From: Halobellus captivus
GTDB taxonomy: Archaea; Halobacteriota; Halobacteria; Halobacteriales; Haloferacaceae
Direction of reading: 5' to 3'
Length of the DNA: 59,030 nt
Assembly: GCF_003697845.1 (NCBI RefSeq)
Contig: NZ_RDQE01000016.1
Coordinates: 1 to 59,030 of the forward strand
Within the stretch, counting starts at the first letter, position 1, and every line of letters starts with the position of its first letter. A program made the position numbers and the translations under genes. Shown piece after piece: positions 3,976 through 59,030 of the stretch. Below the pieces are notes generated by a model. That model was not told the origin of the DNA and did not search any database. It worked only from the letters and a program-made list of their open reading frames with translations.

Positions 3976-4042
3976 AGCTCTGTTAAAACCCTCAATAGGT
4001 GATACATTCTGACCCGGTTGCGGTCAATACAGGCGAGGAACC
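3976..4042 (+). repeat. Solitary IS-type terminal sequence (AGCTCTGTTRAAA family)
   Basis: The stretch starts AGCTCTGTTAAAACCCTC and continues about 65 bp with clear similarity to 54695-54760, including the shared run GCGGTCAATACAGG. The opening resembles the GGCTCTGTTGAAATC ends of the 701-bp element at 16519-17219 and IS6-family ends such as GGCACTGTTG. No transposase is attached, so it is read as a leftover element end. Confidence 0.55.
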
Positions 4043-4077
4043 GAACGGTTCATACATCCCAGATAGAATAAACAGAC

Positions 4078-4248
4078 ATGTCCGACCGAACCGACCGATT
4101 GCTTGCGGTCCTCGTTATATTGATGGGCCTGTTGGTCATCGCTCAAACGACCGTCGTTCCCCGAAATCAATCGCTTGGCACAATCGGCCTCATCGTCGGC
4201 GCTGCATCAATCGGGTACGCCGCATCTCAGATTGTTGCCGCTCGTTGA
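4078..4248 (+). CDS. Small two-segment membrane protein, unknown function
   Basis: This 56-aa ORF is read from ATG 4078 to TGA 4246. Residues about 8-24 (LLAVLVILMGLLVIA) form one hydrophobic helix. Residues about 34-55 (GTIGLIVGAASIGYAA) form a second, with a polar loop VVPRNQSL between them. The short N-terminus MSDRTDR is charged. Codon use is GC-rich in third positions, as expected for real haloarchaeal genes. It stands alone between an IS-type end and the partition cassette. I do not recognise a family; a small stress or membrane-associated protein is the most that can be said. Confidence 0.6.
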   Translation: MSDRTDRLLAVLVILMGLLVIAQTTVVPRNQSLGTIGLIVGAASIGYAASQIVAAR

Positions 4249-4395
4249 TTCGCACAGACGGTAGGCCAAGCGGTATCTTCGCAGTTCTCATCGACTGGAT
4301 GTTTCAGGTGAAAATATATCTGAAAAAAAAAAGGATTTCAACAGAGCCGACCAAGAGTAATTGTGGTCTAAGCGTAGTCAGAAGCGACGACGCAG

Positions 4396-6556: not shown

Positions 6557-7090
6557 GTGCCAGCGCAACTGTTCCCATCTGTGGAGAGTCATATTATTGA
6601 CGCAAACCTCTTCATCCGATTCGAGCGGCACAACACCGTCAATCTGCTTGAGCGGGCTGTCACCGAGCAGAATCTCGTCCTCCTGTTACCCACACGTGTC
6701 TATGAAGAACTCACGCCTGAATCACATCCCTACAACACTCCTCCGATAGAGGATGCGATCGAAGCTGGCTGGGTACAGCTTCTCGAAGAGGTCGACTATT
6801 CTAATCCGGTCGTTTCTGCGACGATGGACCTAATTCGTCAGTATATTTCTGCTGCCACCGATCGTCCCGAGCACACGATAGAGCAAGCAGATGCGGAAGT
6901 GGGTGGGGCAGCAGCAACACTCCTCGAACAGGGACGGACAGAATCGATCGGCATCTACACGAATGATTTGCCCGCGTTCCGCGGGATTGAGCGCGCCCTC
7001 TCACAGCATGGCTACGATGACGCAGTTCAACTCGTCAAGGCCTTCGACTTCGTCACGTCCGTCGAAAACCGGTACCAGTTCTCTGGATGA
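6557..7090 (+). CDS. PIN-domain protein, probable ribonuclease toxin
   Basis: The 177-aa product reads from GTG 6557. PIN-type acidic residues are present: IIDANLFIRF (Asp near 15), an early conserved YEELT (Glu near 50), IEQADAEVGGAAATLL (Asp near 118) and IYTNDLPAFRGIE (Asn/Asp near 139). PIN domains are Mg-dependent RNases and often serve as toxins. The preceding winged-helix gene is 5 bp upstream in the same direction. A 5'-truncated relative lies at 37233-37529 on the minus strand. The GTG start is chosen because it places the first catalytic Asp near the N-terminus and suits the short intergenic gap. Confidence 0.75.
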   Translation: MPAQLFPSVESHIIDANLFIRFERHNTVNLLERAVTEQNLVLLLPTRVYEELTPESHPYNTPPIEDAIEAGWVQLLEEVDYSNPVVSATMDLIRQYISAATDRPEHTIEQADAEVGGAAATLLEQGRTESIGIYTNDLPAFRGIERALSQHGYDDAVQLVKAFDFVTSVENRYQFSG

Positions 7091-7154
7091 TCGCTTTCTG
7101 ACGCACTGACCACAGAGGATACGGCCATCATTCGTCGTTGATCTCGACAGAGCT

Positions 7155-7780
7155 CTACTTGTCGTCAAATTCTTCGAGGAGATCGCTCTCGACTTCATCG
7201 AAATCATCTGGTGTGTACGTCGTCGGGGGCGACTCGTCGTCACCAAGATCGAGAATCAAATCGATGGCTTCGACAAGATCATACGCAGTTCCAGAAGGAA
7301 GGTCTGCGAGGTTCGCGATCTGCCGGATTGTGACATCACCCTCACTGTGTGCTTTCACGAGGTCGTATGCGAGTGCAAACGTGACGATGCCGTGGTCTTC
7401 GAGAACCCGCTCGATCGCTGGATATTCGTTCTTCTGTGCGATCACTTCGATAAGTTCAGGCGTAATCGAGACTTCTGTCTCGCGGACTGTCAATGTCATT
7501 TCGAACTCTTCAGCGGTGTATACGGCAGTCCTGATATCATGGTCAACTTTGCTGATCAGGCCCGCCTGTTCCAGTTTATGCAGATAGTCGTACATCGTCT
7601 TCTTCGAGACTGTTGTTGTTTCAACGAGTTCAGGGCCTGTGGTAAGTCCCGGACCGCCGAATCGACGTATAGAGACTAGCGAGAGACGGGTTCTCGAGTA
7701 AATTCTGCGAACGTAGGGATTCCGGTGATCATCCCCGGAGTGTCACCCGCGTTTCGCACGTGTTTTGAATCGTAGCTCAT
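7155..7780 (-). pseudogene. Broken paralogue of the winged-helix antitoxin-type gene
   Basis: The intact 3' portion (from ATG 7595) encodes KKTMYDYLHKLEQAGLISK plus the C-terminal domain seen in the 5964-6551 protein. It lacks the first half of the HTH. Upstream in another frame an N-terminus is readable from ATG 7780 (MSYDSKHVRNAGD, then MITGIPTFAEFTREPVSR). It stops at an in-frame TAG at 7676-7678. Just past it, LYVDSAV in the first frame and GPGLTTGPELVE in the second look like the two halves of the missing helix region. The gene therefore has at least one stop and a frameshift near 7640-7680. Sequencing error is the alternative. Confidence 0.7.
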
Positions 7781-7926
7781 CTTGTATAGAGTTACGAAAC
7801 TAGAAACGTTCGCGACGGAAATGAGTCACTAGTTTGGATAAGAAGAGGGGAGATGGGGTTTCGCTATGAGTGAGAATTAGTTCTGCTGTGACGCACCTAG
7901 ATACGGCAGGTAGTTCCACAAGCGCG

Positions 7927-8382
7927 CTAGTCGTCACCAACGCTGAACTGCGTGTATTCACTCACAGTATTCAAGACGACGCTTGTATTAGACTCCTGTA
8001 CATCCGCATCACCTAAGAGACGCTTGATCTGATTGTTCATATCGTCGGAGTCTGCGAACTTTCCAATCGCGATAATGTCGTAATCGCCAGTCGTCTCATA
8101 CACACTCATCATCTGTGGTTCATCGCGAAGCGCGTCTGTAATATCCGGTAGCCCGGGGCCATCGACTTTGAGCTGGAGAATGGCAGTCACGTCGTAGCCA
8201 AGTTTGCTGTAATCGACAATTGGCGTGTAACCCTCAATTGCGCCTGCTTCTTCGAGATCTGCTAAATGGTTCGAGACCGTCGTCACAGACACATCAAGCT
8301 CGTCGCTGAGATTGCGCAAGCTCTCACGGCCATCTCCTAGAAGCTCGTTTACTAGTTCCGTATCGAGGTTTTCGTACGCCAT
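7927..8382 (-). CDS. Lrp/AsnC-family transcriptional regulator (copy 1)
   Basis: This 151-aa protein has an N-terminal HTH of the AsnC type ([20 protein letters not shown]) and a C-terminal RAM-like ligand/oligomerisation domain ([19 protein letters not shown], then [16 protein letters not shown]). Lrp-type proteins form octamers or dimers that sense amino acids and control metabolic genes. ATG 8382 (MAYENLD) is preferred over an upstream ATG at 8454, because the paralogue at 56772-57227 aligns from exactly this point. The extra upstream residues overlap a repeated IS-type sequence. The protein differs from the second copy at only a minority of positions. No adjacent target gene is obvious. 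Confidence 0.88.
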
Positions 8383-8447
8383 TGATCCTATTTTGATCTG
8401 TAGAGGCCATAATTGTTTTACTTGAGCTCTGGTGAATTGATATTTAT

Positions 8448-8493
8448 CAGACATATTCTCGCCTGAGCCAGCTGGTCGATGAGAGTTGCGAAT
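8448..8493 (+). repeat. Partial copy of a dispersed IS-end-like repeat
   Basis: CAGACATATTCTC followed by CAGCTGGTCGATGAGAG closely matches 32360-32406 and resembles the inner parts of 54820-54888 and 56690-56760. The outer GGCTCTGTTGAA terminus is missing. It lies just upstream of Lrp copy 1. Confidence 0.55.
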
Positions 8494-8542
8494 TACTCGG
8501 GGTGAAGATTTTATTACAACATAATGTCAAGCATGTTTTCAG

Positions 8543-9844
8543 TCATTTCTTGTTCACGCGATGGTCTGTCTGCGAGAACGCTTCGGTCGCCATGTCGGCA
8601 CGCTCGGCCGCCTCGATATGCTGGTAGGCCTCGCGCACCTGTTCCTCACTGTTGTCGAGATACCGCGCGGCCGCGGCGTAGCCGAACTGCCGAACTAGCA
8701 CTTCTCCGACACCCCGACGCCCGCCGTGTAGTTCGAGATAGTCGCCATCGAGTGAGAGGTCCAGTTCGTCGCGACGCTCGGCGAGTGTGTCGTGTGTCCA
8801 GAGCCGTTCCATGATCGACCGGGCACCGTCGGTGGTGAGCGGCTTCGGCGCGTCGAGGTCGTGCTCAGCAGCGACGATCAGGTCAGGTGCCCCGTTTCGA
8901 ACACGCTCGATCGCGTTGTCGCGGAGACCGACAGTGGCGAGTCCATTGGCGACGTGTGAGGCAAGCGAGGGGCGGTGTAGCGTCGTGAACACCGGCCACG
9001 AGTCCGGCACGTCCAGCACCTCGGCGTACCGCTGCAACGGGCCGATAACGGGCTCGGGGAGTGATGCCTCCTTCCACTCACGGCTCTTTCGGAACACGGT
9101 GACGCTGCTGTCCGCGAACGACACGTCACGCCAGCGAATCCCGTTGCGGCCCTCACGGTCCTCCTTCGGCGCCGAGAGGAACTCCGAGCCGCGCAGGCCC
9201 GTGTAGGCGACGACGTACACGAGCGCCTGTTCGCGACACCGCTGGTAGGCCTCGAACCGGGCGCGCTGTTTGGCCTGCCACGCCTCGCTCTCTGGATCGC
9301 CCCGCTCGGCGTGTGGAACTTCGATCGCGCCGAGCGCGTCGAACGCTTCGGAGACGCACCGGTCAACGAACTGCGTGATCAGGTCACGGTGGATCGGCTC
9401 CCACGCCTGCTGGTCTCCTGGACGTCGGCCGTCGTTCTCGGGGAGCGGGTCCTCGGCGTCCGACTCCCGGGCGTAGTGCCGCGGGATGTACCCCTGCGCG
9501 TGCGCCCATCCGCACCACGACGCGACGTGCGCGTAGTAGGTGAGCACCGTCCCGGCGGCGTACCCGGCGGTTGAGAGATACCGCGCGTAGTCCGAGAACA
9601 CCGTCGTATCGAGGTCTGCGAACCGGACGATGTCGCCGTCGACGACGCCCGCCCACGACTCCGGTGGGGAGGCGTTCGCCGGGTCGGCAGTCTCGCCGAG
9701 ACACCAGCGGCGGAATCGCTGGAGCTCCCGCTCGGCGTCGGCACGATACGCGCCCTGCTCGCCAGCGTCGCCTTTACCCTTGTCGGTGAGGTATTTCGTG
9801 AACGTGTCGTCGATCGCGGTCTCGACGGAGCGGCGGCCCGTCAT
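8543..9844 (-). CDS. Tyrosine recombinase/phage-type integrase
   Basis: The 433-aa protein has an N-terminal SAM-like core-binding domain (about 1-150, with SDYARYLSTAGYAAGTVLTYYAHV). A C-terminal catalytic domain follows. The first Arg lies in AYTGLRGSEFL (about residue 222), HxxR in LELHGGRRGVGEVL (about residue 375), and the nucleophile Tyr in VREAYQHIE (about residue 410). These enzymes cut and rejoin DNA at attachment sites, for integration, excision or dimer resolution. The coding sequence is markedly GC-richer than the flanks. No tRNA gene or attachment-site duplication is visible next to it, so whether it serves this element or is a remnant of another cannot be decided. Confidence 0.85.
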   Translation of the reverse strand: MTGRRSVETAIDDTFTKYLTDKGKGDAGEQGAYRADAERELQRFRRWCLGETADPANASPPESWAGVVDGDIVRFADLDTTVFSDYARYLSTAGYAAGTVLTYYAHVASWCGWAHAQGYIPRHYARESDAEDPLPENDGRRPGDQQAWEPIHRDLITQFVDRCVSEAFDALGAIEVPHAERGDPESEAWQAKQRARFEAYQRCREQALVYVVAYTGLRGSEFLSAPKEDREGRNGIRWRDVSFADSSVTVFRKSREWKEASLPEPVIGPLQRYAEVLDVPDSWPVFTTLHRPSLASHVANGLATVGLRDNAIERVRNGAPDLIVAAEHDLDAPKPLTTDGARSIMERLWTHDTLAERRDELDLSLDGDYLELHGGRRGVGEVLVRQFGYAAAARYLDNSEEQVREAYQHIEAAERADMATEAFSQTDHRVNKK

Positions 9845-10334: not shown

Positions 10335-10721
10335 TTAGTCGTGCGGGATCAACGCCGAGGCAACGAGCTCAACACACTCACCCGCAGTCAACACGGGTGC
10401 GTAGTCCATCTCTCCGTCGACACCTGCTTTCAGCAGGAAATCGGTGAGCCGCCAGATATTGTACAAGAGGACCGCGAACACGAAGTAGAATAGGCGAACA
10501 CGGTAATCTTTCGAGGATGTCTTGGCGAGAAAGTCGCCCTTGATCGATTTGTACTCACTCTCGATCTGCCACCGGCGGCTGTAGCGCTGACAGAACGTCT
10601 CGGCTTCCTCGGGACCGACTCGGAGATTCGTCGCGAAGACGGCCGTTCCCTCTCCACTCGTCGACGGTACGTACAGGAGCCGCATTGGATGCGAGCCCGC
10701 CTCAACGTGGACAGAGGCCGA
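10335..10721 (-). pseudogene. C-terminal fragment of an IS4-family ISH transposase
   Basis: The readable part ends in a typical IS4 C-terminal signature. RYSRRWQIESEYKSIKGDF (Y-x3-R-x3-E-x6-K style) holds the catalytic Glu, followed by the hydrophobic VRLFYFVFAVLLYNIWRL. Upstream, LLYVPSTSGEGTAVFATNL is the strand before it. The two catalytic Asp residues and the whole N-terminal half are absent: similarity stops around 10721, where unrelated promoter sequence for the next gene begins. It is therefore a truncated, inactive remnant. Confidence 0.8.
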
Positions 10722-10778
10722 TTCCCAGGTTCCTATATAACGGTGTGGCGTTTTATATGTCCAAATAATATTGTGCTT

Positions 10779-11186
10779 ATGGGTACAAACCATACAACAG
10801 AGTCGAACAGTATTATTCAGTGGCCGTCGGAATCAGTGGGGTATGTGGCGGTTCTTTTGGCTTTCATTACGGGGATCATTCATCTCGTGGCGACGACACG
10901 GGCTATTGAGATGAGCGTTGTGCTGGCGGTCCTCTTCGTACTCAACGGACTGGGTTTCCTCGGCGGAGCAGCACTGTATTTCACCCGGTTCTGGCGACGC
11001 TCGTTTTTCCTCGCGGCTGCAGTGTACTCATTAGTGACGATTCTCGCGCTGTTCCCGTTCCAAGGTTGGGGGGTCGAAGCGTTCTACATGAACGGGGCGA
11101 TTAACCCAATTGTCACCGTCACGAAAGTTGCGGAAGCTTTCCTTGTGATCGCGTCGGTTTACTTGTATAGCAGCACAAGCAATTGA
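10779..11186 (+). CDS. Four-segment integral membrane protein, unknown function
   Basis: This 135-aa protein starts at ATG 10779 (MGTNHTTESN). It has four hydrophobic helices at about residues 18-36, 40-62, 67-88 and 108-128. The second carries VLAVLFVLNGLGFLGGAALYF. A tryptophan/proline-rich loop LFPFQGWGVEAFY precedes the last helix. A TATA-like stretch AAATAATATT lies just upstream, so the upstream in-frame codons belong to the transposase scar and not to this protein. It resembles small haloarchaeal membrane proteins of uncharacterised families; I cannot assign a role. It stands between two IS remnants. Confidence 0.7.
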   Translation: MGTNHTTESNSIIQWPSESVGYVAVLLAFITGIIHLVATTRAIEMSVVLAVLFVLNGLGFLGGAALYFTRFWRRSFFLAAAVYSLVTILALFPFQGWGVEAFYMNGAINPIVTVTKVAEAFLVIASVYLYSSTSN

Positions 11187-16518: not shown

Positions 16519-17219
16519 GGCTCTGTTGAAATCCTCAGCAGGTGATATGTTTTTGCAGCTGTGCTGAATATAGAGCGCATACCGGTCACGTAGCCCTGTC
16601 TGTATCAGCGTAACATATAGAGCGGTTTCTTCGTACTGTATGGCTGCGCGCTCTGTTTCGTAATGAGCAGTTCTCGGATAATCGCCCCGAATGGCGGTCT
16701 CGTCCCAGTCGCCAAGATAGACACATTTTTGATGAACAATTCGAAATATCGTGCTATGGCAGCCCGTAACAACCGAGGTAAAAGTGGGAGCCCTGCCACG
16801 TTACCTGATGTGGTACCATTCGACTTGTCTCATCTAACCCGGCAGAGTTGGGAGTTGGGCAACTCCACCGTTCAGGACGAACAAGCAGCGATTCTTGGTA
16901 AATGGACTCATCAGAATAATCAGTGGCGGCTGTCGATTTTCGAGATTACCAGTGAAACAGCCATTATCTGTATCCGGACTCCTGTCGGTCGAGAACGATT
17001 TTACGGGGCGATTCAATCGGAACTCAAACCAGCTATTCAAAAACTCGAAGTGAATCCATCTTGGCAGCAAGTTCGGTAAGCACGCGTGTCTTAGGTATAC
17101 AAGCACATTCTATCGGCTGATTCTGGAATCTTTTGAGAAAATACGCAGTTCTTGTGCTGACTACACGCTCTGTATCTCGCACGCCGGTCCTATCAGTTCC
17201 TAATGATTTCAACAGAGCC
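16519..17219. mobile_element. 701-bp non-autonomous IS-like element with target duplication
   Basis: The left end GGCTCTGTTGAAATC (16519) and the inverted right end GATTTCAACAGAGCC (to 17219) match perfectly for 15 bp. Similarity stays weaker for about 60 bp inward. ACTAAAC flanks both ends directly (16512-16518 and 17220-17226), a 7-bp target duplication, or 8 bp with one mismatch. The ends resemble IS6-family termini, but no DDE transposase is inside. The only good ORF is 16663-17079. It is best read as a MITE-like passenger mobilised by a related transposase. Confidence 0.75.
16663..17079 (+). CDS. Uncharacterised protein carried in the 701-bp element
   Basis: This 138-aa ORF fills most of the element. 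It has no transmembrane helix, no DDE residues and no recognised motif. The second half (GKWTHQNNQWRLSIFEI, then GRERFYGAIQSELKPAIQKLE) looks like a compact alpha/beta domain. An internal ATG about 31 codons in (MAARNNRGKSGS) is an alternative start. Being cargo of a transposable unit, it could be a regulator or a decayed gene; I cannot tell. Confidence 0.45.
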   Translation: MSSSRIIAPNGGLVPVAKIDTFLMNNSKYRAMAARNNRGKSGSPATLPDVVPFDLSHLTRQSWELGNSTVQDEQAAILGKWTHQNNQWRLSIFEITSETAIICIRTPVGRERFYGAIQSELKPAIQKLEVNPSWQQVR

Positions 17220-52708: not shown

Positions 52709-52967
52709 TATTCGATCACTTGAATACAGGGAACGCTTCCCTCGAGCCCGGTTCGAATTCGTCCCCAATTCTGCTGCTGGCCTAGGCCAGAATGAATGTA
52801 CATTGGTGGTTAATCATCTAACAGTAAGAGAATAAAAGGATTTACCATCTAACCCTTAAAGGTATGCGGAGCGATACACAACATGGATACACTATCATCA
52901 GAATTCGTTATAGGCACCTGTCGATACCCGATTTCTGTGATTCACCATCCGTCCACATTATCGAGTA

Positions 52968-54203
52968 ATGACTACCCAACCGACCCCCCAGCATCAAGAA
53001 CCCACTAATAGCGATCCACATCAGAAACATCAGTCGACGTGGGGTATCGTCGCCGGCGCGAGCCTCATTTCGACAGGGTTGGCAGCCTACGAGATCGTGC
53101 CCGCGAGCGTCTCCCCGCTTATTCGTGACTCGCTGGGTATCGGACCAACAATCGCAGGCTTCCTCGTCGGCATCATGTTCGGTACTGCAGTGATTGTAAG
53201 CCTTCCAGTTGGTGCGGTGCTTGACCGGACAGACTCTAGAAACGTGATGGCACTCGCCGTTCTCACACTACTCGTGGCTGGAACGTGGGGGTGGATCGCT
53301 GGACGACAAGGGGACTACCGATCAGTAATTGCCTCACGAGCGCTCGGTGGAGTCGCCTACGTCGTCGTGTGGAACGCGGGCATCGATATCGTGAGTCGAG
53401 CAGCGACCAGCGAGAACCGGGCAACGGCTGTCGGTATCTTTACGGCGAGTGGCCCGGTCGGATTTGCGCTCGGGCAAGGGACTGGCCCAGTGATTGCGCA
53501 TCGATTCGGGTGGCCTACAATCTTTATCGCGTTCACGGGGCTCACAGTCATCGGTCTCGTTGTGTTCTGGCCGGCCAGTCGAGGGATCGGAACGAGCCGA
53601 GGAGCCGCTCCCTCGATTCAGGAGTTTGGTGCGGTTCTCCGGAACCGGAAGGTATGGTCAGTCGGGTTGCTCGGGTTTCTCGGCTATTCGTTATACTTGT
53701 TCGTGAATAGCTGGGGTGCGTCGTATTTGACGACCGAACTCGGCCTGTCACTCGCAGTGAGCGGGCTCTTGGTGGCCGTATTCCCCGCAATCGGGGTCGT
53801 CTCCAGAATCAGTAGTGGCCTCCTGTCTGATCGAGTATTCGGGGGTCGTCGCCAACCCATCGTTTTTGTGTCCTTCGCAGTTTCTGCTCCGCTCGTACTG
53901 CTGTTCACGCAGTTCCGGTCACTTCCACTGCTCGTTACATTCCTGCTGCTCACCGGATTTGCTGTTCAGCTTACGCTGGGGCTGTCCTTTACGTATGTTC
54001 GGGAGGTCGTTGATTCACGGGTCGCTGCGACAGCCGTCGCGTTCCAGACTAGTGTTGGGTTAGCGGGGGCGTTCCTTGCACCGATTGCAGGCGGGGTTAT
54101 TGTCGACAGAGCCGGCTTTGATACGGCATTTCTCCTCGCTGGAGGTCTCGCCATCTGTGGAATTGTGGTTGCATGGCGAGCTCCAGAGCCAGGCTACTCG
54201 TAG
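52968..54203 (+). CDS. Major facilitator superfamily transporter
   Basis: The 411-aa protein has a hydrophilic His/Gln-rich N-terminus (about 25 residues) and twelve helices. The motif A region is LPVGAVLDRTDSRNVMALAV. GPVGFALGQGTGPVIAHRFGW lies at the helix 5 antiporter motif position. The layout suits an organic anion or nitrate-type carrier, but the substrate is unknown. The divergent multi-sensor regulator 260 bp away is a likely controller. Confidence 0.85.
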   Translation: MTTQPTPQHQEPTNSDPHQKHQSTWGIVAGASLISTGLAAYEIVPASVSPLIRDSLGIGPTIAGFLVGIMFGTAVIVSLPVGAVLDRTDSRNVMALAVLTLLVAGTWGWIAGRQGDYRSVIASRALGGVAYVVVWNAGIDIVSRAATSENRATAVGIFTASGPVGFALGQGTGPVIAHRFGWPTIFIAFTGLTVIGLVVFWPASRGIGTSRGAAPSIQEFGAVLRNRKVWSVGLLGFLGYSLYLFVNSWGASYLTTELGLSLAVSGLLVAVFPAIGVVSRISSGLLSDRVFGGRRQPIVFVSFAVSAPLVLLFTQFRSLPLLVTFLLLTGFAVQLTLGLSFTYVREVVDSRVAATAVAFQTSVGLAGAFLAPIAGGVIVDRAGFDTAFLLAGGLAICGIVVAWRAPEPGYS

Positions 54204-54335
54204 CAACGGATTCAACTAATCCATTATGATTCCTGCTCCCGTAGCTCTTTGGCCTTCACTTGAGCCGGCACAGGGTCTGCGTCCGCTTCTGGTGGACGCT
54301 CTCGTAGGCAACACTCCTGGAGGGTTTCCAGATCT

Positions 54336-54578
54336 GGAATCGTTGCGATCCCTGCCTTGATCAGGCTCGTGTTCGCGCTCGCGGGCTACCTCGTCCACGA
54401 CGTTCACGAGACGGTGCCGTTCGTCCTGCTCGACTCGCTCGAAGCGATCGACTCGGACCGAATCGCGCGCGTCGTCGACTACTTCCGAAGCCACGCCGAC
54501 TACCTCGTCGCCGCGCTCCTCCCCGAGGACGCCGCCGCCCTCCCCGACGAGTACGCCTACGTCGAACAGATCGACTGA
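54336..54578 (+). pseudogene. C-terminal fragment of an archaea-specific SMC-related ATPase gene
   Basis: The frame reads LVFALAGYLVHDVHETVPF, then LLDSLEAIDSDRIARVVDYF and YLVAALLPEDAAALPDEY. This matches the Walker B/D-loop region (VLLDSLEAID) and tail of haloarchaeal SMC-like proteins. All upstream parts, including Walker A and the coiled coil, are missing. The reverse strand has a longer but meaningless frame. The fragment ends 14 bp before an IS200/IS605-type end. Confidence 0.65.
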
Positions 54579-54591
54579 TTTCCATCTTGAC

Positions 54592-54650
54592 ATCCTCCTG
54601 CGCCTGAAGACGGAGGAACCTCGCCGGTGGGTGTTTCAGGTTTTGACATC
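54592..54650 (+). mobile_element. IS200/IS605-type end remnant
   Basis: TTGACATCCTCCTGCGCCTGAAG is followed by GGAGG, which pairs with CCTCC. It resembles the end at 11185-11206 (TTGACATCCTCCCCGCCCTGAAG). A second TTGACATCTTCCCCC follows at 54644. No transposase is present. Confidence 0.55.
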
Positions 54651-54694
54651 TTCCCCCCCGAAGCGCGAGACTTTCTCCTCGATTCTCCGAAAGT

Positions 54695-54760
54695 AGCTCT
54701 GTTGAAATCCTCAATAAGTGACATATTCTGCCCCAGCGGCGGTCAATACAGGTGATACAC
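54695..54760 (+). repeat. Solitary IS-type terminal sequence, homologous to 3976-4042
   Basis: It starts AGCTCTGTTGAAATCCTCAA and shares GCGGTCAATACAGG with the copy at 3976. It lies 125 bp before the left end of the inverted-end cassette. Confidence 0.6.
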
Positions 54761-54819
54761 AGAACGCTTAGCACAGACGACCAAAACCACACACCCAGAT
54801 AGTTAGCACTTACACACGG

Positions 54820-54888
54820 GGCTCTGTTGAACTCATTCTCCAGGAATATTCTCCTCTGAAACAGTTGTTCACTGAAGAATATAACAAC
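54820..54888 (+). repeat. Left end of a cassette flanked by inverted IS-type ends
   Basis: GGCTCTGTTGAACTCATTC continues with CTGAAACAGTTGTTCACTGAAG. It matches the reverse complement of 56690-56760 over about 60 bp. No target duplication was found. Confidence 0.65.
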
Positions 54889-54927
54889 CCTTGCTGAGTG
54901 AAACAATGTGAATACACTCGTCCTCTG

Positions 54928-55893
54928 CTAGGACGACTCGTTCGTCGAATGTGTCTCGGTGCCGCAAGCCATGAGAGTTGACAGAGTATTCACGGTGAGT
55001 TCTCCCTCAGAATCAATTTCTGCCCGTGTTGACGACTGGTTACAGTCGAAGTTTTCGGGCGTTACCTGCTCGCTGGCCGTCATCTCTGTTTCGAGTACAT
55101 CAACCGATAGCGTGTATGTCCCGCTCTCAGTGAGGGTGATCAGTACTGTACTCTCAGGTTCGACCGTGTAGAGTCCATCAAATTGCGCTGTCGAGTCGTC
55201 CTCAACGAGCATCCTGGCCGTCCACGTTTCTTCCGACGGATTCCGGAGCATGAACATGTGGGTGAATTCCCCCGTATCTGCGGGAATCGGATCGTCACCA
55301 AGTGTGTGCGACACGACCTCGTCGGAGGGAGCTGTGTCGGAAACAACACCGGGACACGCCATCCGCGTGGAAATACTCGTTGAGTCGAGTGTGCCATCCT
55401 CCTGAACGTTGACCGTCGTTTTGGTCACGTTACAGGTGAATTGGTGAGGGTCGAGAGTGACTACTTCAGTCGCATCTAACTCAGGAACCGTTACTCGAAC
55501 GGTGTACGTACTGAGATCGGTAAGCGACGCAACGATACTCGCGTTTGCTTGGAGCTCCACCGATTCCTCAAACACTGTCTCGCTGGCAGTCGAAATTGTA
55601 ATCGTTCCGTGATGGGTCTCCTCCGTGGGGTTCCCGAATGCGACGTGGTGAGCTGTTCTGAGACCACGCTCTTCGATCGATCCGGTCCCGATAGTTCGCT
55701 CAGCGGTGTCACCGGCTTTGATAAGTGTCTGCTCCGACATTTGGTCAGTATCGTCTTGTGTGCTCTCGGAAGTGTTCGATTCTGGTTCAGAGTCTGATTC
55801 GGACGATGCGCTCAATGCTGCTTGGGAGGTACAACCCGCTGCTGCTGTTGAGAGGCCAATCCCCGCACTTGCCAGAAACATTCTACGTTTCAT
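54928..55893 (-). CDS. Secreted Tat lipoprotein with two repeated domains, unknown function
   Basis: The 321-aa precursor has a twin-arginine signal with lipobox (MKRRMFLASAGIGLSTAAAGC), so Cys21 should be lipid-modified and the protein anchored outside the cell. A Ser/Glu/Asp-rich linker follows (about 22-55). Two related beta-rich domains come next (about 80-190 and 205-315). Each ends in a Cys-containing segment (FTCNVT...MACPG and FDCNQS...LMACG), suggesting one disulfide per repeat. The gene lies within the inverted IS-type ends with an HTH-membrane gene 71 bp upstream on the same strand. The function is not recognisable. Confidence 0.75.
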   Translation of the reverse strand: MKRRMFLASAGIGLSTAAAGCTSQAALSASSESDSEPESNTSESTQDDTDQMSEQTLIKAGDTAERTIGTGSIEERGLRTAHHVAFGNPTEETHHGTITISTASETVFEESVELQANASIVASLTDLSTYTVRVTVPELDATEVVTLDPHQFTCNVTKTTVNVQEDGTLDSTSISTRMACPGVVSDTAPSDEVVSHTLGDDPIPADTGEFTHMFMLRNPSEETWTARMLVEDDSTAQFDGLYTVEPESTVLITLTESGTYTLSVDVLETEMTASEQVTPENFDCNQSSTRAEIDSEGELTVNTLSTLMACGTETHSTNESS

Positions 55894-55964
55894 ACACTAC
55901 CATTAGACGGGGGAGACATCGTCCTATCCCAGATTCAAAGGCGTCTTTGAGTCCCAGAAAGCAC

Positions 55965-56600
55965 TCACGCGGGAGTGTGACTCTGTGTTGGACGATACGT
56001 CCGCCAGTACCACGTTACAAAGAGAAACAAGATTAGAACCATACTAACTCCTAGAATGAACCCGCCAGGGCCGGTTCCGAACGTAACGAGTGTCTCCCAC
56101 AGAGTTGGATCCGGCTGTGGAAGTTCCCCGCCTCGAGATACTGGTACGGGTGTTGATACTGACCAGCGTGCGTGAACGATGACACTGACAACGCCGACGA
56201 TACCAACTGCGCCAAAGACACGACGCAACGCGGTTGTAAGTGACGGGGTTGTTCGTTCTGCTCCCGCAAAAAGGACAAGCGCGCTATTTGTCGGAGCGTA
56301 CACATCCATCTCGCGCCCTTGCTCGGAATACCACGTCTCAATGACTTCCACTAACTCTGCGTCTTGAAGCCGGTCGAGGTGGTAGCTAGTATTCTGTACT
56401 GAAGAGTCAATCTCAGCAGCAATGTCCGACGCCGTCATCGGTTCTTCATAGATCCGATTAAGGATACGACGGGCCGTTGTTGACGCGACTGCCGATAGAA
56501 TCTGCTCCGCAGATTCGTCTTCAAATTCAATGAGTCTAGGCTCTAATCCGCGATCAGATGCTGATCGGGGTGTAGGTTTTAGAGGTAGTAGTGAGGACAT
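55965..56600 (-). CDS. Membrane-anchored winged-helix (ArsR-like) regulator
   Basis: The 211-aa protein has an ArsR-type winged helix at about residues 32-100 (RRILNRIYEEPMTASDIAAEI, then QNTSYHLDRLQDAELVEVI). Two transmembrane helices follow, at about 128-146 and 174-194. Such haloarchaeal proteins couple DNA binding to a membrane signal. It reads in the same direction as the lipoprotein gene and could regulate it. The two genes together occupy the cassette between inverted ends. Confidence 0.8.
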   Translation of the reverse strand: MSSLLPLKPTPRSASDRGLEPRLIEFEDESAEQILSAVASTTARRILNRIYEEPMTASDIAAEIDSSVQNTSYHLDRLQDAELVEVIETWYSEQGREMDVYAPTNSALVLFAGAERTTPSLTTALRRVFGAVGIVGVVSVIVHARWSVSTPVPVSRGGELPQPDPTLWETLVTFGTGPGGFILGVSMVLILFLFVTWYWRTYRPTQSHTPA

Positions 56601-56689
56601 AGTCGTCCAATTTGTTTACGCTCTAATATGACTAATGAAGACTCAAAGAGACGTTTGTGTCTGAGTTGCCGAATTGCGCAATCATGACT

Positions 56690-56760
56690 CTGTTGGCACC
56701 CTTCAGCCAACAGCTGTTTCAGCCCATATTGTGTCTGTAGAATAAGATTTCAACAGAGCC
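56690..56760 (-). repeat. Right end of the inverted-end cassette
   Basis: On the minus strand it reads GGCTCTGTTGAAATC, then CTGAAACAGCTGTTGGCTGAAGG, the mirror of 54820-54888. Its outer 15 bp equal the ends of the 701-bp element at 16519. It lies 11 bp from the stop of Lrp copy 2. Confidence 0.65.
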
Positions 56761-56771
56761 CCAAAAGTAAC

Positions 56772-57227
56772 CTAGTCATTGCCAACGCTGAATTGCTCGT
56801 ATTCTTTCACTGCATTCAACACAACACTTGTATTCGATCCTTGGACATCTGCATCAGTCAATATTCGCTTGATCTGGTCGTTCATATCATCTGTATTCAG
56901 GAATTTTCCAATCGCGATGATGTCGTAGTCCCCCGTCGTCTCGTAGACGCTCACGATCTGCGATTCATTGTGAAGTGCTTCTGTAATATCCGGGAGTCCA
57001 GGCCCCTCAACCTTGAGCTGGAGAATTGCGGTCACGTCGTAGCCGAGCCGCTCATAGTTAACAATTGGAGAATACCCTTCAATGGCACCGGCTTCTTCCA
57101 GGTCGCTCAGATGGTTCGACACTGTCGTTACAGACACATCAAGCTGTTCGGCAAGACTACGCAAACTCTCACGCCCATTTCCTAGAAGTGCATTGACCAG
57201 CTCTTTGTCAAGATTTTCGTACGTCAT
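56772..57227 (-). CDS. Lrp/AsnC-family transcriptional regulator (copy 2)
   Basis: The 151-aa protein aligns without gaps to copy 1 (7927-8382). [21 protein letters not shown] is the HTH, and [19 protein letters not shown] with [16 protein letters not shown] the ligand domain. ATG 57227 (MTYENLD) parallels copy 1; the frame runs to 57251. The substitutions are mostly conservative, so this is an old duplication and both copies are probably functional. An IS-type end adjoins its 3' side, as one adjoins the 5' side of copy 1. Confidence 0.88.
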
Positions 57228-57367
57228 TGTTAACTTCTTTATTTGAACCAAGGATAAGAGTGTTAGTTACTATGGCAATACTTCAGAATTCGCTATCCAG
57301 AATTACCATTCACTTCCTTGGGACCGTTCTTCTGTTACTGAGTAATGTGTCAACACACTCAAGTCAG

Positions 57368-58732
57368 CTAAATGATGCCGCCGATCACGAGTAGTCCGAC
57401 GACAAGCAGCAGCGTCGCAACCACGCTCCCGCCAGCCAGCAGCTTGTTCTCCATCGCCTTCTCGTGGATCGGCATCTCGGCGTACTCCTTGCGGAACGCG
57501 TCAAGGTTCTCCTCGTCGTAGAAGTACTTCGTCTTCAGCGCGAACCGTTCGGTCACTGCACAGCCGGTACAGACCGACTCCCCTTCGAGCCGTTCGGTCT
57601 TGATGTGAGTGTCACAGGCGATCGCCCCGCAGTTTGGACAGTAGGTGTACGTCCCGTCGACGCCGCTCGTCTCGCAGTGGACGCAGCGATGAATCCCATC
57701 CTCCAGAGTAACCCGTGAGGGGCCAGCAGCATAGTATTCGTAGGGATACGAATACTCCAGTATCTCTATCGTCTGCCGAATCTCAGGTAGATAGACCGGC
57801 TCAATCGATTGTACAGAGATATCCGAGAGGTTCGGCTCACACGTCTTGTTGTACGTGACGTTGTTGTCGCCGGTGTAGGTCACCGTCGTTGTGTGGTGCT
57901 GCTGGAGCCGCTCGACAGCCCACTCCTTGTACTCGGTCTGGGTCTGTCCGAATCGGCGCTCCTCGATGTCGTCGAACACCTCCCCAAACCGTTCCAAGTC
58001 GAGTTCGATCCTCGTATGGAGGTTCTCGGTGACCAATGTCGCGACATCCTCGTCGACGACCTGTGGGTTCCCACGTTCAGCGTGTACCACGAACCGTGTC
58101 CGATCGTTGATCTGGTGGATGACGCCGACGGACGTCTCGAAAACAGCGTTCGTGTCGGCGGTAACCGCGACCACCGGTCGGAACGTCACCGCTGAGTGCG
58201 GTGGTGAGAGATCGGCAGCCTCGATGTTCTCAATATCCCGGAACGCTTCCTGGACGGGTGCGTCGACGTCAGCGGCCGGGTCGTATGGACGAAGGGTCTC
58301 GTCGCAGAGAATTTCGATGCGACCGTTGTAGAGGTCGAGGCCGATCTCGTCGGCGATCTCTCGGAGGTCCTCGCCATCGAGCAACTCGATTGGGTGTGGG
58401 TCGTCGTTTTGTTGGAGACGGTCAGCGTACTCCTGAGCGGGACTCGTAAACCGGCCGGTCGTGACTACCATTCCGCGTTTCGGGCCATCGAAATCGAACG
58501 TCGCGATCGCCGAGTGGAGCTTCTGGACGACCGGCCGCCCGACCGTCCCCGTGTGTTTGCACTCGACGACGATCGCGCGTCGTGTCCCGTCGACGACCTC
58601 TTCCATGATGACATCGCGACCCTCGTCGGCTGTCTTCTCAGCCTGTCGGACGTTCTCGTAGCCGAGGTTGCGGAAGACATCCTCGATCAGATCCTCGAAC
58701 TCAAACCCAGAGAGATCGTCCAGAACAGCCAT
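57368..58732 (-). CDS. Membrane-anchored Mrr-like restriction endonuclease with zinc ribbon
   Basis: The 454-aa protein starts with an Mrr_cat nuclease domain (about 1-125). FEFEDLIEDVFRNLGY is the first helix, DEGRDVIM provides the catalytic Asp, and VVECKHTG the Glu-x-Lys pair of PD-(D/E)xK enzymes. A middle region of unknown fold (about 150-345) follows. Next is a cluster of CxxC pairs (CVHCET, CPNCGA, CTGCAV) that should bind two zinc ions. The last 25 residues (GGSVVATLLLVVGLLVIGGII) form a membrane helix. Mrr enzymes cut modified DNA. A membrane anchor with zinc ribbons is unusual and suggests defence against incoming DNA at the cell surface. ATG 58732 is used; six extra codons are possible. 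Confidence 0.85.
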   Translation of the reverse strand: MAVLDDLSGFEFEDLIEDVFRNLGYENVRQAEKTADEGRDVIMEEVVDGTRRAIVVECKHTGTVGRPVVQKLHSAIATFDFDGPKRGMVVTTGRFTSPAQEYADRLQQNDDPHPIELLDGEDLREIADEIGLDLYNGRIEILCDETLRPYDPAADVDAPVQEAFRDIENIEAADLSPPHSAVTFRPVVAVTADTNAVFETSVGVIHQINDRTRFVVHAERGNPQVVDEDVATLVTENLHTRIELDLERFGEVFDDIEERRFGQTQTEYKEWAVERLQQHHTTTVTYTGDNNVTYNKTCEPNLSDISVQSIEPVYLPEIRQTIEILEYSYPYEYYAAGPSRVTLEDGIHRCVHCETSGVDGTYTYCPNCGAIACDTHIKTERLEGESVCTGCAVTERFALKTKYFYDEENLDAFRKEYAEMPIHEKAMENKLLAGGSVVATLLLVVGLLVIGGII

Positions 58733-58796
58733 TCTAAGGTACGGATACAATCCCGTTCATCTGACAAATATGTTGCCGTCTCATCGTGATCTTTCC

Positions 58797-58934
58797 TCAA
58801 GACGGTGAACATTGTTCCTGCTGTCGCTCATATGTCGCGAGTTTTTTGATCCGCTCATTTGTCGGTGAATGCGTCCGGAACAGCCAACGTTCGAACTGAT
58901 AGAGTCGTTTTCGAAGCCTCCAGTACGAGGGCTC
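58797..58934 (-). pseudogene. C-terminal fragment of an HtpX/M48-like protease gene
   Basis: The frame reads YWRLRKRLYQFERWLFRTHS, then PTNERIKKLATYE. The pattern FRTHPPTEERIxxL is the conserved C-terminal end of HtpX-type zinc metalloproteases. An in-frame stop just upstream (58935) cuts it off from any HExxH catalytic region, so it is a remnant. Confidence 0.55.
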
Positions 58935-59030
58935 TCATTCGTCTTTAGCTAAGACTCGCACCTCGGTTGCGTAGCGGTAGCGAGTGTCTCTTGCAGGATC
59001 GGTCGTTGCTTGTGGATCTTCTGCGCGTCG
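58935..59030 (-). CDS. Possible 3' end of a gene running off the right edge
   Basis: A frame open to the window edge reads AEDPQATTDPARDTRYRYA, then EVRVLAKDE, ending at TGA 58935-58937. The composition is protein-like but only 31 codons are seen, so no family can be named and it may be chance. Confidence 0.3.
   Translation of the reverse strand, partial: RRAEDPQATTDPARDTRYRYATEVRVLAKDE

Follow-up and report, generated by a model that had tools for sequence, protein, structure and literature searches.

We identified in a 59,030-bp stretch of DNA (contig C8 of a 3.59-Mb genome; hereafter the window) a 2066-bp mobile unit that is flanked by target-site duplications, has empty counterpart sites and encodes no transposase. 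It carries a conserved pair of genes, each preceded at a fixed distance by a palindrome that, within one mismatch, has no further occurrence in the host genome. We consider it probable, with real room for doubt, that a host-type module was captured by ends of the IS5 family and moved in trans, and that its cargo is a regulator-lipoprotein control circuit with two palindromes.

Boundaries, mobility and class of the cassette

The initial annotation had placed the cassette at 54820-56760, between inverted IS-type ends. Those two ends are real. An exact GGCTCTGTTGAA occurs at 54820 (+) and at 56749-56760 (-), and the arms extending from them (46 nt) are 72% complementary. With at most one mismatch, the motif had 6 matches in the window versus 0.24 expected; the 12-mer had 17 copies genome-wide, and its reversed control had none. 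It also terminates the element at 16519-17219, so the kinship with that 701-bp element was correctly recognized. The left boundary of the unit, however, is 54695, where there is a second end, of the LE type (AGCTCTGTTGAAATCC). A scan of end pairs that took in the 8 bp outside each end showed 54695/56760 to be flanked by CCGAAAGT/CCAAAAGT (7/8), while no flanking duplication was found for the pair 54820/56760. The span 54820-56760 was ruled out as the transposing unit because it lacks a duplication and the co-terminal copy in H. saccharovorum is longer. The features that define the unit are as follows.

54687-54694, + strand: target-site duplication, left copy, CCGAAAGT
54695-56760, no strand assigned: whole mobile unit, 2066 bp, delimited by H. 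saccharovorum homology, duplication pairing and the empty site in genome G108
54695-54760, + strand: left end, LE type, AGCTCTGTTGAAATCCTCAATAAGTGACA...GGTCAATACAGG; homologous to the H. californiense LE and similar to the LEs of the C37 and idi-2 elements
54820-54889, + strand: extra internal end, RE type, taken as the left end in the initial annotation; flanks without a match
56693-56760, - strand: right end, RE type, GGCTCTGTTGAAATCTTATTCTACAGACAC...; 82% over 68 bp to the H. californiense RE
56761-56768, + strand: target-site duplication, right copy, CCAAAAGT; 7/8 match, chance 3.8e-4

The LE and RE types can be distinguished from their inner sequences. Since the ends at 54820 and 56760 are both homologous to one RE of the H. 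californiense copy, they form an RE-RE pair, and the orientation of the window cassette is inverted relative to the LE. Bacterial TIMEs are described as composites formed from two miniature elements (PMC4133298), and composite formation of this kind would be one route to the extra RE of the window copy. The cassette directly adjoins an orphan C-terminal gene fragment (54357-54642), which recurs at 89-96% across many Halorubrum genomes and is followed by an IS200/IS605-like terminal sequence. Two Lrp-like regulator genes, at 56772-57251 and 7927-8324, are 77% identical in the compared part of their DNA.

A blastn search with window 52901-59030 showed that H. saccharovorum DSM 1137 (G127, L054/L071) matches 54694-56758 at 95% over 2067 bp and has no match in either flank, the locus being unrelated. 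That copy sits between GTAGCTAT and GTAGCAGT, a 6/8 duplication. When the window flanks were joined without the unit and with one duplication, they matched end to end at 95% in G108 (C45 63326-64027), where the junction carries a single CCATAAGT; the joined H. saccharovorum flanks matched G140 (C11 54089-54774) at 81%. The empty sites in these two congeners establish two independent insertions of the cassette, and the decay of the duplications (7/8 and 6/8) indicates that neither insertion is recent.

Further copies differ in their ends. The H. californiense copy (G110, L061) has the order LE-regulator-lipoprotein-RE with clean LE and RE, and its flanking sequences contain no matching duplication. 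The ends of the H. salsamenti, H. tebenquichense and H. coriense copies are degenerate or single. At the H. salsamenti locus (L055, ~6900-9100) the ends are of a different, degenerate form (GGATCTGCTGAAACC and GACTCTGCTGATA), as though another end subtype had given the module new borders. In the search with and without ends that the initial annotation had proposed, ends were found on some Halorubrum copies, and none were found on the Halorhabdus, Halomicrobium, Natrinema and Haloferax copies. Its description of a mobilisable cassette without an internal transposase is borne out by the two insertions, the duplications, the empty sites and the presence of only two genes between the ends. The contrary case that it had raised, in which the pair is always chromosomal and the ends are absent elsewhere, does not apply, as the H. 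saccharovorum and H. californiense copies have the ends.

Only one intact cognate IS is present genome-wide (C16 207-1382; 1176 bp), with ends GGCTCTGTTGAAATCCTT and GGCTCTGTTGAAACCCTT and an 8-bp duplication, TCAGAATT (8/8). Its transposase scored 212.6 bits versus an NCBIfam IS5 cut-off of 140, and the element is 94% identical to ISHla2 and 95% identical to ISHxa2. The IS6 family, our first idea from the terminal inverted repeat, was dropped once the C16 element proved to be IS5. The terminal GGCTCTGTTGAAATCC is common to the cassette ends, the C16 element, ISHla2 and ISHxa2, while in their inner sequences the cassette LE and RE depart from the C16 copy. ISHla2 and ISHxa2 encode a transposase, whereas the cassette does not.

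The cassette is a mobile insertion cassette (MIC), an established class (defined in PMC3129680) exemplified by MIC231 of Bacillus cereus, as listed in the references of PMC2266710. Like other MICs, it has IS-derived terminal inverted repeats (here GGCTCTGTTGAAATCC, common with C16 IS5 and ISHla2), unrelated passengers without a transposase, and a duplication of the length made by the cognate IS (8 bp; 7/8 in the window, 6/8 in H. saccharovorum and 8/8 for C16), and it occupies different sites with empty counterparts. The initial annotation therefore went too far in calling it of a kind not recognized. It differs from known MICs in being archaeal, in its IS5/ISHla2-type ends, in its extra internal end and in its cargo, a two-gene module with its own repeated palindromic sites. 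With 2066 bp and two conserved genes it falls outside the MITE class, and with no internal transposase it falls outside the transporter IS (tIS) class. Haloarchaeal MITEs (Haloquadratum HqIRS, ISH2; PMC3119063) likewise lack a transposase and have inverted ends akin to those of known transposons, and HqIRS32/ISH2 bears a small ORF; unlike the cassette with its two conserved full-length genes, they are too short for a transposase, reaching ~520 bp (PMC3119063). No paper on passenger-carrying cassettes of such size in haloarchaea was found in the literature searched. MICs are known mainly from bacteria and are seldom annotated, and the present one provides an archaeal case with boundaries, duplications and empty sites.

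A conserved regulator-lipoprotein module with two palindromes

The cargo consists of two genes and the two palindromes that precede them.

54928-55893, - strand: Tat lipoprotein, 321 aa, with two beta-sandwich domains and one Cys pair in each
55932-55953, - strand: palindrome before the lipoprotein, GACTCAAAGACGCCTTTGAATC, at -60 from the start
55965-56600, - strand: membrane-anchored winged-HTH regulator, 211 aa, with two C-terminal TM helices and no cysteine
56640-56661, - strand: palindrome before the regulator, GACACAAACGTCTCTTTGAGTC, at -61 from the start

The initial annotation had described a Tat lipoprotein with two Cys-paired repeats and a membrane-tethered ArsR-like regulator, and both descriptions held. 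The lipoprotein begins with an RR and GC lipobox signal followed by a low-complexity linker. Its two repeats share 29% identity (E 1e-13), and the invariant cysteines C154/C180 and C284/C310 probably form one disulfide in each. In the predicted structure, the domains span ~54-190 and 208-310, mostly with pLDDT > 90. A fold search returned generic beta-sandwiches only (PepT ectodomain, TssJ and transthyretin; Z ~7), from which no function was taken, and a sequence search for solved homologues returned none. A META domain (PF03724) scored 24.5 bits versus a cut-off of 24, with the match confined to 33 of its 109 positions in the region of the Cys motif.

The regulator combines an HTH_20/ArsR-like domain (HTH_20, 49 bits; HTH_5, 31.9 bits; both above gathering) with an HVO_1552_C domain, and has hydrophobic segments at ~123-146 and 178-200 and a strongly conserved N terminus, MSSLLPLKP. 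In a structure search, its winged HTH resembled the archaeal ArsR homologue PH1932 and the heat-shock regulator of P. furiosus; the TM part of the model is of low confidence (pTM 0.44). As a metalloregulator it scored 36.8 bits with the NCBIfam model, below the cut-off of 55, and with 0 cysteines it has no thiolate metal site. With a DNA-binding domain and TM segments in one chain, it belongs with the transmembrane (one-component) transcription regulators defined in PMC10269533. Like HVO_1552-type regulators (Pfam PF24267), it has an HTH and an HVO_1552_C membrane part scoring over gathering. Such paralogues are widespread (167 of 195 genomes) and may adjoin unrelated genes (e.g., C23:96298), while the cassette regulators form a distinct, lipoprotein-linked subgroup among them. 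No papers on HVO_1552 were found in the literature searched.

We then examined how the two genes are distributed. Lipoprotein relatives were present in 33 of the 170 genomes of the family, and occur in Halorubrum, Haloferax, Haloprofundus, Halorhabdus, Halomicrobium and Natrinema and on a Halobaculum plasmid. Among 22 named loci, L085 was left out for its truncated lipoprotein; at 19 of the remaining 21 full-length lipoprotein loci, a scan of the genome contigs placed the regulator immediately upstream in the same orientation. L083, L084 and L057 have full-length lipoprotein genes with no adjoining regulator. Of the 14 regulators that scored > 250 bits in 195 genomes sampled across the order, 13 adjoin a lipoprotein gene, and weaker regulator paralogues are almost universal (167 genomes). 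Halomicrobium katesii has two divergent lipoprotein paralogues ~12 kb apart (L080 and L084; 68% and 49% to the window), with the regulator beside one only.

Between mobile copies and those without ends, homology begins at the upstream palindrome (~56660) and ends at the lipoprotein stop codon (~54923-54932), and the conserved unit is therefore palindrome-regulator-palindrome-lipoprotein. The neighborhoods of seven loci contained no shared third gene. Transfer between genera is not claimed from the shape of the tree, in which a Halorubrum clade was not rejected (AU p 0.37).

The palindromes, traced from the second inverted pair of a repeat finder, form a 22-bp dyad with the consensus GACTCAAAG-N4-CTTTGARTC. 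All 13 non-Haloferax lineages carry one palindrome 60-61 bp ahead of each of the two start codons, and each site scored 15-17/18 in the non-Haloferax loci (p <= 0.005 versus single-base shuffles). In 12 of the 13 lineages, the two best palindromes within 4.7-6.7 kb are those at -60/-61 of the regulator and of the lipoprotein; in the 13th, Halobaculum, both sites are present and the lipoprotein site has a 5-bp spacer. The palindrome-to-start spacing is fixed, and the intergenic gap varies from 71 to 87 bp. In Haloferax, the genes are close-packed and only a diverged upstream site is found. A genome-wide search of the host with at most one mismatch found no occurrence beyond the two cassette sites. 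In the literature searched, we found no description of such a module with two private palindromes.

A proposed circuit and alternative explanations

The private palindromes together with the gene pair suggest a self-contained circuit, the simplest reading of which is that the regulator would bind both palindromes and control itself and the lipoprotein. We propose that a two-gene host-type module was captured between IS5-family (ISHla2-type) ends and that transposase would be supplied in trans, most likely by the 1176-bp C16 element or its kin, transposition leaving an 8-bp target duplication. The regulator would be held in the membrane, its winged HTH facing the cytoplasm, and as a dimer may bind the 22-bp palindrome that precedes its own start and that of the lipoprotein by ~60 bp, thus setting the levels of both, more likely by activation than by repression. 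The lipoprotein would be exported by Tat and anchored outside, where it probably displays two Ig-like domains; it could either meet an external cue or act at the surface, and might feed back on the regulator through the membrane.

In function, the regulator is most likely similar to ArnR of Sulfolobus. Like ArnR/ArnR1 of Sulfolobus acidocaldarius (PMC6396743), it has an N-terminal HTH and two C-terminal TM helices, and it shares with ArnR palindromic boxes upstream of the promoter and the control of a surface protein, the latter two being predicted for the regulator here. Relative to the flaB start site, the boxes of ArnR are located between -43 and -84 (PMC6396743). Whereas ArnR contains HAMP and sensor domains and controls promoters of the archaellum and pili, the regulator here is shorter and ArsR-like, and its predicted targets are the neighboring lipoprotein and itself. 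No HAMP or sensor domain was found in it, with only ~35 residues between the HTH and TM1, which places it outside the ArnR family.

The sign of control is where the main alternative lies. Many ArsR/HTH_20 regulators are autorepressors that bind palindromes. The cassette could accordingly carry an ArsR-like repressor that keeps both genes off until an envelope or metal cue arrives, and the HTH_20/ArsR group of the HTH and the two near-identical sites, as in classic autoregulation, are consistent with this. Haloarchaeal mRNAs are mostly leaderless. The palindromes end ~39 bp ahead of the start codons, on the upstream side of where BRE/TATA would be expected, and activation is favored on this ground, as this is the position of an archaeal activator (ArnR, PMC6396743). 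The regulator also lacks any cysteine for a thiolate metal site. We consider the repressor explanation unlikely, though not negligible.

The circuit reading bears on the initial suggestion of a surface-signalling or defence cassette. Surface signalling is plausible, with support from the membrane-anchored regulator, the surface lipoprotein and the two private palindromes. Defence found no such support. In a cassette for defence or superinfection exclusion, the lipoprotein would mask or block a viral receptor and the regulator would control the cost; its mobility, its patchy occurrence (33 of 170 family genomes), its surface-anchored product and an adjoining Mrr-like nuclease gene (57368-58750) would fit. 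However, the Mrr gene lies outside the element and did not accompany the pair at the other inspected loci, and the gene pair is retained without ends in several genera. In addition, the lipoprotein had no match among defence families, where the regulator had only generic HTH matches (Csa3/CARF) attributed to its wHTH. No relatives were found in phages or viral contigs, and a phage or virus origin was rejected. Altogether, a defence role appears improbable. The product of the adjoining gene has an Mrr-type nuclease domain, a zinc ribbon and a C-terminal TM segment, and gave moderate matches to the candidate defence family PDC-S02.

It is highly improbable that the genes provide no useful trait and persist as a selfish stabilisation (addiction) pair of the element: although a sister cassette bears an addiction-type gene (HicA, L169), a secreted lipoprotein with a transmembrane regulator is unlike any known toxin-antitoxin pair, and lipoprotein-only copies exist (L083, L084). 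Least credible, and in effect already refuted, is a gene pair flanked merely by chance by solo IS ends with no transposing unit, for although most copies outside the window clade lack ends and the end motifs are frequent in Halorubrum, a co-terminal copy occurs at a different locus in a different species, with duplications in both and empty sites in two congeners.

If the proposed regulator-lipoprotein circuit is correct, the cargo would be an apparent plug-in membrane-signalling circuit whose DNA sites are unique in the host genome within one mismatch. The cassette could thus serve as a clean natural system for asking how membrane-anchored archaeal regulators reach DNA and how surface traits spread among haloarchaea.

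Transposase-free elements with related ends in Halorubrum

Other elements with such ends carry other genes. A 1125-bp transposase-free element on C22 (L099 5129-6253) encodes an M48/HtpX-like membrane peptidase and has the duplication ACCTGTGA (8/8), and a 2026-bp one on C18 (L098 4822-6847) contains a complete gene for type 2 isopentenyl-diphosphate isomerase, with a 7/8 duplication. In the window, the 701-bp element at 16519-17219 has a 7/7 duplication (ACTAAAC), no transposase and a 138-aa ORF for which no Pfam match was found. A 373-bp element at 3976-4348 has LE- and RE-type ends, a small membrane-protein-like ORF and no target duplication.

To extend the analysis beyond this genome, we counted ends and transposases in 52 Halorubrum genomes. 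There were 1046 ISHla2-type ends (control, 0) and 65 matches to cognate transposases, in 34 of the 52 genomes, an excess of ends of ~16:1 that refers to the cognate family only. From the first genomes listed, 20 end pairs (L162-L181) were chosen for having no known cognate transposase inside, and 10 of them had duplications of 7-8/8. The cargo of the 20 included HicA, a histidine kinase, an MFS transporter and an HTH protein that may have a PIN-like partner, as well as four proteins with lipobox-like signals and several small membrane proteins.

These results tentatively point to a transposase-poor system throughout Halorubrum, in which one IS5 (ISHla2-type) family would mobilise many unrelated genes, with a bias to surface lipoproteins, small membrane proteins and toxin-antitoxin genes, and in which some cassettes would be complete circuits of private regulator, DNA sites and target; we judge this broader generalization possible, but on balance doubtful. 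If it is true, a working surface trait would be transferable by transposition alone. The excess of ends over transposases suggests that such cassettes may make up a large unannotated share of the Halorubrum accessory genome. The window also contains, at 10455-10931, what remains of a DDE transposase gene, interrupted by an internal stop.
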